NCBI RefSeq assembly: GCF_011516765.1
Contig: NZ_JAAABN010000002.1
Coordinates: forward strand, 1 to 64,000
DNA from: Acetobacter sicerae
Lineage (GTDB): Bacteria > Pseudomonadota > Alphaproteobacteria > Acetobacterales > Acetobacteraceae
Length of the DNA: 64,000 nucleotides
Direction of reading: 5' to 3'
A program made the position numbers and the translations under genes. Of this stretch, positions 34,416-37,274 are shown one piece after another; position 1 is the stretch's first letter, and each line of letters opens with the position of its first letter. The notes below the pieces were generated by a model that searched no databases, was not told the origin of the DNA, and saw only the letters and a program-made list of their open reading frames with translations.

Positions 34416-34628
34416 ATGCGACGGCTTGTTCTTCTTTGTATTGCTCTCACAATGACAGCGACGCTCTCTGCCTGCGCGGACTATGGACACCGGCATCATC
34501 ACAGGGGCTGGAGTGGCCCGGGCGGCTATAATCGTCCCGGTGGCGGCATGGGCCCCGGCGGAATGAACGGCGGCGGAATGGGACCGGGAGGACCGGGAGG
34601 CATGGGCGGCGGTCCACGCGGCTACTGA
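34416..34628 (+). CDS. Small Gly-rich lipoprotein
   Basis: The 70-residue product has a lipoprotein signal (MRRLVLLCIALTMTATLSAC, lipobox LSAC with Cys20), then a His cluster (HRHHHRGW) and repeats of GGM-GPGG to the end. An ideal AGGAGG precedes ATG 34416. It is likely an envelope protein; the His-rich patch could bind metal, but no family is recognised. A strong terminator follows directly. Confidence 0.65.
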   Translation: MRRLVLLCIALTMTATLSACADYGHRHHHRGWSGPGGYNRPGGGMGPGGMNGGGMGPGGPGGMGGGPRGY

Positions 34629-34654
34629 ACCTTCTCACACACAAAACGTCCGGA

Positions 34655-34695
34655 CGCCTTCGGAGAAATCCTTTCTCTCCGAAGGCGTTTTTTTA
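34655..34695. terminator. Intrinsic terminator between small lipoprotein gene and metF
   Basis: CGCCTTCGGAGA (34655-34666) pairs perfectly with TCTCCGAAGGCG (34676-34687), followed by eight T residues. It terminates the lipoprotein transcript; the hairpin can also act on the convergent metF transcript, although the A-run on that side is weaker. Confidence 0.85.
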
Positions 34696-34698
34696 TTG

Positions 34699-35583
34699 TC
34701 AGTAAAACCGGCAACCCAGCAGACGGCACAGAGCGAAGGAAGCTTCAGAACGATTGAGCGTGTAGAAATGAAAGCTCTTTACATCGTTCTTCTTCAGCAT
34801 CTTGCACATGGCCGACGCCACGGTGGTGGTGACCAGCGACCGCGCTCTGGGATGATCATCCAGTCCTTCGAACAGATCCTGTAGCCATGCCGGCACTTTC
34901 GTTCCACAAGCCTTCGCGAATGTCATGGCCTGGGCAATGTTGCCCACTGGCAGAATACCCGGCACGAGATCGACATCGATCCCATGCGCAGCCACACGGT
35001 CCCGAAAACGCAGGAACGTCTCAGGTTCAAAGAAGAACTGGGTAATGGCCCGCGTAGCCCCCGCGTCCACCTTCGCTTTCAGATTATCGAGATCCGCTTC
35101 AGCGCTGACGGCTTCCGGATGCACTTCGGGATACGCCGCTACGGAAATCTCGAACGGAGCGATATTCTTCAGTCCACGAACCAGATCGGCCGCATTGCGG
35201 TAACCTTCGGGATGAGGAACAAAGCCCCCACTTCCCTCCGGTGCATCACCCCTCAGCGCGACGATATGACGAACACCGTTCTCCCAGTATGTCCGGGCGA
35301 CAGCGTCCACTTCCTCACGACTGGCGCCGACACAGGTCAGATGCCCAGCAATCGGAGAATTCGTTTTGTGAACGAGTTCTTTCGCAATCTCGATCGTGCG
35401 CTCCCGGGTAGAGCCCCCTGCCCCGTAAGTGACTGACAGAAAAGCCGGATGACTCTGCGACAGAAGCTGTGCAGCATTCATGAGCGGCTCAGCCGACTGA
35501 CCTTCCCTTGGAGGAAAGAACTCGAAAGAGACAGAAAGCTCCTCAGCCCCGACTGGTGCTTTCTCATGAAACTCTGACAACAT
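34699..35583 (-). CDS. metF: 5,10-methylenetetrahydrofolate reductase
   Basis: The 294-residue FAD-dependent TIM-barrel enzyme makes 5-methyl-THF for methionine synthesis. Signatures are SFEFFPPREGQ near the N-terminus, FLSVTYGAGGSTRERT, HLTCVGASREEV, IVALRGDAPEG and ITQFFFEPETFLRF, ending FYTLNRSE. It lies downstream of the metE remnant and its riboswitch on the same strand, so B12 status may still control metF. The terminator at 34655-34695 bounds its 3' end. Confidence 0.95.
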   Translation of the reverse strand: MLSEFHEKAPVGAEELSVSFEFFPPREGQSAEPLMNAAQLLSQSHPAFLSVTYGAGGSTRERTIEIAKELVHKTNSPIAGHLTCVGASREEVDAVARTYWENGVRHIVALRGDAPEGSGGFVPHPEGYRNAADLVRGLKNIAPFEISVAAYPEVHPEAVSAEADLDNLKAKVDAGATRAITQFFFEPETFLRFRDRVAAHGIDVDLVPGILPVGNIAQAMTFAKACGTKVPAWLQDLFEGLDDHPRARSLVTTTVASAMCKMLKKNDVKSFHFYTLNRSEASFALCRLLGCRFY

Positions 35584-35646
35584 ATTTCAATACTTTCGAA
35601 TATCAGTAACAACCGATGACGACTCACTGCACCGGTCAATAACGGT

Positions 35647-35934
35647 TTATGGTCCGGCGCGAAGAATGCGGGCAGCCGCGACTTCCTCCCATTTGCGCGG
35701 CTTCAGATCGCAGTCCGGATTGATCCATATCTGCTCAGGCTTGAGCCGTTCGCGAGCCGCGTGAAGAAGATCGACCATTTCAGCAACTGTCGGGACACGG
35801 GGCGAGTGAATGTCATATACCTCCGGCCCAATCCCCGCCGGATAGGAGCGATTGGCGAACGCATCCAGAGCCGTCTTGAGTTCACGTCGGGCTCCGATAC
35901 GCGAAAGCCCCAGCGTTGCAACATCCACTGTCAT
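35647..35934 (-). pseudogene. metE: metE remnant: large internal deletion of cobalamin-independent methionine synthase
   Basis: The 95-codon frame is a fusion of the two ends of MetE. Residues 1-26 (MTVDVATLGLSRIGARRELK and six more) are the MetE N-terminus. Residues about 34-95 (GIGPEVYDIHSPRVPTVAEM ... WINPDCDLKPRKWEEV) are its extreme C-terminus, including the last zinc-ligand Cys. Normal MetE is about 750-770 residues, so roughly 650 internal residues are gone; the junction is at about 35835-35856. The enzyme cannot be functional. The frame has stayed open, which suggests a recent or tolerated deletion. Methionine synthesis would then require B12-dependent MetH, not present in this window. 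Confidence 0.88.
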
Positions 35935-36044
35935 ATCAAGTCTCTTTCCAATAGCATTGGACCAGGCTTTACGGATTTTACGCGCGTTCCCTCACCGTGA
36001 CAGAGCACGCTTGTCCGCCCGGGCACCCCGTCGGTGGAGGTTCG

Positions 36045-36222
36045 CTGTCATGGCAGGTCTCCTGGCTCGCAGGCCTTCACGACCACGCTGTCTTCCCGGT
36101 TGCTTTCGCTTCCAGTGACGAATGATGCGCGCCGCCCGCCGCTTACAGTTGCGGGGACAGCGTTGGTCTCTCACCAACTTCCCTCTTGGCCGCAGCCTGT
36201 CTGAAGCAGGACGTGGAACCAT
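36045..36222 (-). promoter_or_regulatory. Cobalamin (B12) riboswitch
   Basis: Read on the minus strand the leader contains, in order, GAGGGAAGTTGGTGAGA, the conserved CCGCAACTGT (complement at 36145-36154), GTCACTGG (36112-36119), CCGGGAAGAC and the B12 box AGCCAGGAGACCTGCC (36052-36067). These are the hallmark conserved blocks of the adenosylcobalamin riboswitch. It ends about 110 bases before the metE remnant start, where it would normally repress metE when B12 is present. Now it can only control the remnant and metF. Confidence 0.93.
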
Positions 36223-36271
36223 GTCAGACGGCTTTCGTAATTGTGCATTTCCACAATGTCAAACTAATTGC

Positions 36272-36295
36272 ATATATAAGGATATTGTTATATAT
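36272..36295. promoter_or_regulatory. Inverted repeat, candidate operator of the ArsR-type regulator
   Basis: ATATATAA (36272-36279) and TTATATAT (36288-36295) are perfect arms around GGATATTG. The palindrome abuts the regulator's ATG and lies about 50 bases upstream of the riboswitch on the other side, so a dimeric ArsR-family protein bound here could control both divergent promoters. Confidence 0.5.
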
Positions 36296-36296
36296 A

Positions 36297-37274
36297 ATGG
36301 AAATGAACACCGCTCTTGAACTCTTTCAGGCGCTCGCCGATCCGACGCGCCTGCGAATCTTTGCTCTTCTGCGCGCCATGGAGCTTTCCGTGGGCGAACT
36401 TGCGCAGGTGCTGGGACAGAGCCAGCCCCGGGTCTCACGGCATCTGAAAATCATGGATCAGGCCGGACTGATTGCTCGCCGGAAAGAAGGAAACTGGGTG
36501 TTTGTCACACTCGGCGCGGACCGGATCGTCAAGCCGGTGCTGACGGCGCTGGACAGTTGGCAGCAGGAATCAGATCCGGAAATGGAAGCCGACCTGACCC
36601 GTCTTGCCACAGTCAGATCGGTGCGCGCCAGAGAAGCTGAAGAGTGGTTCGAGCAGAATGCCGCAGGGTGGGACACCATCCGCTCGCTCTATGTGAGCGA
36701 ACCGACAGTCGAGGCGACCATCAAAATCCTTCTTGGCCCGGAGCCTGTCGGGCGTCTGGTCGATATCGGCACCGGTACGGGACGAATGATCGAACTGCTG
36801 GGACCAGCCGCAAAAAGCTGTATCGGAGTTGACCGCAGCCCGGCCATGTTGCGTATGGCGCGAAGCAAGATGAGCGGCAGCCAGAACATACAGGTGGAAT
36901 GGCGGCAGGGTGATCTCTCAGCGCTGCCTCTGCCTGCCGACAGCATGAACACGGCCATCATGCATCAGGTTCTGCATTATGCGCAGCATCCCGGCGCCGG
37001 TCTTGCTGAAGCCGCCCGCGTCCTGAAACCGGGAGGACGATTGCTTGTCGTGGACTTTGCTGCCCATGACAGACGCGAGTTACGCGAAGCCAATGCTCAT
37101 GCCTGGCTGGGATTTTCAGCCGAACAGATGACTCTCTGGTTCAGGGAGGCAGGTTTCAGCGAACCGGAATGCTATCGTCTGGAGGGAGAGATTGCGGTGT
37201 GCCTCTGGCTGGGCTGGAAGATCGGTACCATTGCCGATCATTCTGAAAACAGTTCCAAGAGTCAGACGCATTGA
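36297..37274 (+). CDS. ArsR-family HTH regulator fused to a SAM-dependent methyltransferase domain
   Basis: In this 325-residue fusion, residues about 3-85 form an ArsR winged helix (LFQALADPTRLRIFALL, ELAQVLGQSQPRVSRHLKIM, RRKEGNWVFV) without the usual metal-binding Cys pair. Residues about 145-310 are a class I methyltransferase (LVDIGTGTGRMIELLGP, CIGVDRSPAMLRMAR, EAARVLKPGGRLLVVDF). In proteobacteria such fusions beside metF or metH are thought to sense SAM or SAH and control the methionine cycle (SahR/SamR-like); that role is inferred. ATG 36297 has AAGGAT upstream; ATG 36303 is also possible. Divergent from the riboswitch-metE-metF unit. Confidence 0.85.
   Translation: MEMNTALELFQALADPTRLRIFALLRAMELSVGELAQVLGQSQPRVSRHLKIMDQAGLIARRKEGNWVFVTLGADRIVKPVLTALDSWQQESDPEMEADLTRLATVRSVRAREAEEWFEQNAAGWDTIRSLYVSEPTVEATIKILLGPEPVGRLVDIGTGTGRMIELLGPAAKSCIGVDRSPAMLRMARSKMSGSQNIQVEWRQGDLSALPLPADSMNTAIMHQVLHYAQHPGAGLAEAARVLKPGGRLLVVDFAAHDRRELREANAHAWLGFSAEQMTLWFREAGFSEPECYRLEGEIAVCLWLGWKIGTIADHSENSSKSQTH

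Follow-up and report, generated by a model that had tools for sequence, protein, structure and literature searches.

Cobalamin (B12) riboswitches usually switch genes off. Two mycobacterial examples are described as doing so, and for metE and ppe2 of Mycobacterium tuberculosis the translation of small upstream open reading frames (uORFs) is tied to B12 riboswitches (PMC11260477). Methionine synthesis through MesD and MesX requires neither B12 nor methyl-tetrahydrofolate (methyl-THF) (Price 2021, PMC7857596), and for a divergent bacterial methylenetetrahydrofolate reductase (MTHFR) there is a precedent in Rv2172c (PMC8765232). The window analysed here, the first 64,000 nucleotides of an Acetobacter sicerae contig (NZ_JAAABN010000002.1), probably holds a metE pseudogene in an operon part-way through loss, where metF would be the one gene still controlled by regulator and riboswitch.

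On the minus strand of this locus a cobalamin riboswitch aptamer (RF00174, 36035..36238) is followed by what is left of metE, a 95-codon open frame (35647..35934, stop codon included) recognized by ORF call, Pfam and alignment to intact MetE, and then by an intact metF of 294 aa (34699..35583; ORF call and profile searches); the remnant frame stays open to 63 nt before metF. Compared with a wider contig set, this metF has, among the 80 loci listed of 354, matches exclusively in Sphingomonadales, at 57-61% identity. Divergent from the operon, on the plus strand, is a regulator gene (36303..37274; profile searches) that joins an ArsR-type helix-turn-helix (PF01022, 2.3e-13; NF033788, 90.1 bits against a cut-off of 55) to a methyltransferase domain and is putatively SahR-like. 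Ahead of it lies a 20-bp palindrome, ATATAAGGATATTGTTATAT (36274..36293, no strand assigned), with 8/10 positions paired, a candidate operator for a SahR-like protein; a similar palindrome with 7-9/10 pairs stands upstream of the regulator in all 8 loci examined, a count made without a shuffle control. Two details of neighboring genes were noted in relatives: the metE-metF gap of G015 (L128:6566-6743) contains, by eye, a long palindromic, repeat-like sequence that is absent from the 63-nt gap of the window, and in G029 (L162:3922-4826) the coding sequence of the SahR-like regulator is broken across two frames, next to an intact metF.

An earlier note on this DNA had described both ends of MetE preserved in one open frame with about 650 residues missing, and alignment to the four intact MetE of the genus bears this out. 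Remnant residues 1-23 correspond to the MetE N-terminus (codons 1-23, 35866..35934, minus strand) and residues 24-84 to the C-terminus, in a piece (35647..35865, minus strand) that begins at the motif DAFA and includes the NPDC cysteine. Absent are 653 codons relative to G015, in which MetE has 754 residues, 654 relative to G063, and 710 relative to the longer G064. By descent this is MetE, since both ends align and the gene occupies the same place in the operon; of its domains, Meth_synt_2 (PF01717, 3.4e-20) matches only profile positions 232-314 of 324, so that the catalytic domain is incomplete, and the N-domain (PF08267), on residues 6-28, scores 13.1 bits, below the cut-off of 27. The junction of the main deletion, previously placed at 35835-35856, moves with the alignment to 35863..35870 (minus strand), where its position is ambiguous inside a short run common to both ends: the best placements are 35863-35870 with G015 and G064 and 35870 with G063, and with G015 alone there is also a tie at 35845. 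In G064 a 6-nt run is common to both deletion ends, which makes a short-repeat deletion plausible. Near 35680, in the C-terminal tail, reading the alignment by eye reveals another 24 nt deleted in frame, and the stop codon, again by eye, falls two codons later than in G063.

The riboswitch, in turn, was claimed to be intact, and judged from sequence its core is on a par with those of relatives that retain metE. Its covariance score of 109 bits (E 2.2e-26, gathering score 31.5) compares with 124.2 in G015, 129.6 in G064 and 135.6 in G063, and with 82.6-117.4 for the four other riboswitches in the same genome. Strongly conserved consensus positions, including the B12 box, are identical at 62 of 66 in the window, compared with 61, 62 and 64 in G015, G063 and G064, respectively, and the P2 stem retains, by eye, 4 of 6 standard pairs. 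The aptamer thus looks usable, with a core conserved as in the intact relatives. When the leader was folded as a single sequence, the result was no better than for shuffles, and a promoter-like match at 36003-35975 is at about shuffle level (mean 0.7). The ancestral unit, a SahR-like regulator divergent from operator, riboswitch, metE and metF, survives intact in two species of the genus; in the window, metE has undergone the large internal in-frame deletion and the small deletion in its tail. A transcript would start at the regulator's operator, cross first the B12 aptamer and then the 95 codons left of metE, and read into metF; B12, via the riboswitch, would lower this transcript and the regulator would tune it according to the SAH/SAM state, both inputs now acting on metF alone.

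A different view of the same arrangement is that the 95-codon frame is kept as a translated leader, with ribosomes shielding the mRNA from Rho-type termination ahead of metF. Several features are compatible with this: the two deletions are both in frame, leaving neither frameshift nor early stop and a frame open almost to metF; the start codon is preceded by a purine-rich stretch; the aptamer core is conserved; there is no intrinsic-terminator-like site in 34550-36420; and the uORFs of M. tuberculosis metE and ppe2 offer an example of such translation alongside B12 riboswitches. Set against these, two in-frame deletions would arise by chance about one time in nine, the frame occurs in no second species, and in the more distant G003 regulator and metF survive although metE is reduced to a scrap of about 33 aa and RF00174 has no match there. 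We therefore regard a retained leader as improbable. The fuller version, an operon rewired so that the riboswitch gates the leader frame and translation of that frame decides transcription into metF, we likewise consider unlikely; if true, it would mean a B12-repressed metF alongside a separate, divergent MTHFR feeding MetH.

Returning to a metE pseudogene in a decaying operon, the rest of the genome indicates what may have replaced the lost synthase. Searching the 4.03 Mb genome with PF01717 at E <= 0.001 recovered the remnant alone, indicating neither MesD nor a second full-length metE; presence of the latter was one of two findings that the earlier note had named as fatal to its reading. 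A search for metH, which had also been suggested, recovered a complete MetH of 1171 aa (TIGR02082, 1246 bits against 1010.85). A reading of metH as broken, taken from a 'TAA inside' flag, was rejected, the TAA being the end of the gene. All 10 proteins from two B12-synthesis gene runs that were submitted to NCBIfam exceed their curated cut-offs (CobF, CobM, precorrin-6A reductase, CobI, CobH, CobG, CobB, CobO, CobQ and, barely, CobD), and CobN and CobW were identified by Pfam. Five B12 riboswitches are present in the genome; two head the B12-synthesis gene runs and two further ones precede ORFs that, judged from their translations, resemble TonB receptors. These last two, together with MetH as the only methionine synthase found, might suggest that loss of metE made the organism dependent on external B12, the riboswitch being left over from a life of B12 scavenging. 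We think this very unlikely: B12-synthesis genes are present, on the part of the pathway steps that was checked, and loss of metE should consequently not create dependence on outside B12. On those steps, the cell should make methionine via MetH without added B12.

We searched 49 species genomes of the genus for PF01717, RF00174, canonical MetF, the regulator, MetH, MTHFR and a divergent MTHFR described below. Full MetE is present in only four species (G002, G015, G063 and G064), and the gene order of the window is intact in two of these, G015 and G063, with the regulator divergent from operator, riboswitch, metE and metF; in G064 regulator and metF are divergent from riboswitch and metE, and in G002 metE lies ~46 kb away from metF. 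Near full-length short PF01717 genes occur in 31/49 species, with pieces in G010 and G030, the partial match in G030 being truncated by a contig end. These 351-aa genes were considered as MetE and rejected, as they are MesD beside MesX: mesX adjoins the short gene in 26/26 loci fetched from the 31 species (5 species unfetched). Among 22 plasmid records with a match to the MesX-MesD region of G013, 19 are from Acetobacter, 2 from Bartonella and 1 from Enterobacter. Two other arrangements were observed among the relatives. In G022 a B12 riboswitch (G022:C1:1734319-1734550, minus strand) precedes a Rieske/VanA-like oxygenase gene (L165:2898-3992, minus strand) that diverges from mesX-mesD, so that the gene behind the riboswitch is not a synthase. 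G020 (L117) has MesD/MesX and no match for MetH, either kind of MTHFR or a cobalamin riboswitch; its methionine synthesis is apparently free of both B12 and methyl-THF.

On either side of the island, the window shares 82-90% identity with G013, G018, G032 and G034, and 68-77% with G025. G025 retains a 56-aa end of metF, 79% identical and containing one stop, together with a 29-aa piece of metE, approximately residues 324-352. Three MetE queries each give this piece 43-44 bits, compared with a maximum of 25.8 bits over 50 base-shuffled versions of the region (G015 query). This piece belongs to the part deleted in the window, and the MetE ends kept in the window were not found in G025. The window and G025 thus keep different parts of metE, which implies two independent losses. 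A scrap resembling the regulator in G025 (E 0.006) overlaps the metE piece and was too weak to count. In G032 pieces of metF lie in three frames, with a weak regulator scrap (5e-05); no metE or metF piece was found at the locus in G013, and none within the stretches fetched from G018 and G034, where the flanks lie apart, rearranged. Regulator and metF are present in G029, G030 and G031, with no metE piece found adjoining. On the sequence evidence, then, this is parallel loss: at the corresponding site, related species have lost metE through different break points, and several of them have lost metF there too. The earlier note saw in the locus a snapshot of the loss of B12-independent methionine synthesis, and with metE internally deleted, no second copy, MetH present and relatives at other stages, that description stands.

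Whether the remnant itself bears marks of a dead gene is a subtler matter. Six of 45 positions invariant in the four intact MetE are altered (F10L, P11S, G38E, V71I, G76D, T79P), compared with 0/45 for G015, 0/45 for G063, 3/48 for G064 and 13/58 for the distant G002 when each intact gene is left out in turn; the two zeros come from species closely related to each other, and under the G002 scheme the remnant itself has 7/58 altered. The excess is nominally significant against 0/45 (p 0.026) and not significant against 3/48 (p 0.31). Values of pN/pS between the remnant and its relatives (0.21-0.40) are similar to those among the intact genes (0.16-0.44), indicating that most of the divergence is older than the deletion. 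The altered residues fit relaxed constraint without proving relaxation, and it is from the deletion that we argue for a dead gene. As to the product, the earlier note envisaged a 95-residue peptide retaining the cysteine of the zinc site. Cysteine 75, in NPDC, is indeed kept; a zinc site could not form from it alone, however, because the segments with HTHMC and the glutamate, which we take to be the other zinc ligands of MetE, fall by alignment within the deletion. A working small protein whose cysteine binds zinc or homocysteine is for this reason extremely unlikely: beyond those segments, most of both domains is gone, the neighbors of the cysteine are altered (G76D, T79P), and no other PF01717 match seen in the 49 genomes has a similar deletion (that of G030 being cut by a contig end). 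Collapse of a full metE during assembly, conceivable in a draft of 93 contigs, is just as remote, as the locus is internal to a 375-kb contig with flanks syntenic with relatives, no other metE catalytic piece was found in the genome, and diverged ends with a second deletion would not be expected from collapse of a working gene.

If metE was lost from this operon first, what remains would be a metF under B12 control. Because B12 riboswitches usually switch genes off, abundant B12 would lower expression of metF, to the detriment of MetH if metF encoded the sole MTHFR. A divergent MTHFR-like protein would lift this conflict. This protein, of ~250 aa and with a predicted MTHFR fold (G000:C6:194710-195480; L180:1534-2286, plus strand in L180), is found in 46/49 species, that of the window included, the G036 copy being split in two at contig ends; the raw tally of 48 was reduced by G030 and G066, in which the sole matches are canonical MetF. 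In G013, G025 and G027 a stop codon falls within the match; in G025 it disappeared on trimming of the 5' end. The copy in the window's genome scores 19.5 bits with PF02219, below the cut-off of 24, which some copies from other species pass. Searched against the PDB, a profile built from 20 members ranks MTHFR chains in the top 9 places (best 5.7e-05), and an AlphaFold model (pLDDT 88.9, pTM 0.87) used as Foldseek query returned MTHFR in all 50 rows listed, with TM-scores of 0.63-0.78 on the query at 14-19% identity. We found no published divergent MTHFR in acetic acid bacteria in a search of open-licence titles, which does not establish that none is in print.

Near full-length copies of canonical MetF are much less widespread, occurring in 18/49 species; the MTHFR profile is over its cut-off in 23, a tally that includes copies of the divergent protein. 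With the window excluded, canonical MetF is present in 17/36 species that have MetE or MesD and in 0/12 that have neither (Fisher one-sided p 0.002), a count in which pieces were scored as MesD and some metF genes sit in MesD islands. Including the window gives 1/13 for the latter group and p 0.010, the species being non-independent; that of the window is the only one of the 13 to retain canonical metF. The species without the divergent protein are G030 and G066, both with canonical MetF, and G020, which has no MetH match; every species with a MetH match has the divergent protein, canonical MetF or both. From this distribution and the modeled fold, we hypothesize that the divergent protein is probably the main MTHFR of the genus, feeding MetH and making canonical metF dispensable. 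Loss of metE would then be tolerated in a cell that makes its own B12 and uses MetH, with 5-methyl-THF supplied by the divergent enzyme, and canonical metF, redundant by this scheme, may well be lost next. A housekeeping role for the divergent protein, which is probable, would explain how metF can be lost while MetH stays. The locus shows clearly how B12-independent methionine synthesis is lost step by step and in parallel, in a bacterium that has B12-synthesis genes of its own; here the synthase was lost before riboswitch, regulator and metF, and relatives have lost these in other combinations.

A search of open-licence titles for a decayed metE behind a riboswitch listed none on that subject, which likewise is not proof of absence. 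The aptamer, its location ahead of metE and its conserved core are those of other RF00174 riboswitches before metE, and the difference lies in the gene behind it, which is mostly deleted, the next full gene being metF. The remnant resembles two-domain MetE (PF08267 with PF01717) at its two ends, both alignable with the intact proteins of the genus, but lacks the catalytic core. MesD, frequent in the genus, shares PF01717 with it, as the MesD/MesX system has been described (PMC7857596); unlike mesD, the remnant is built of MetE ends, has metF and the regulator as neighbors, and adjoins no mesX (PF08908). An ArsR-type regulator beside met genes and a 20-bp palindrome as its candidate operator recall the SahR regulons as outlined by Leyn 2014 (PMC4239095), from which the window differs in that its regulator is fused to a methyltransferase domain. 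Taken together, this is ordinary gene decay in an operon of a known type, with an unusually full series of intermediate states.
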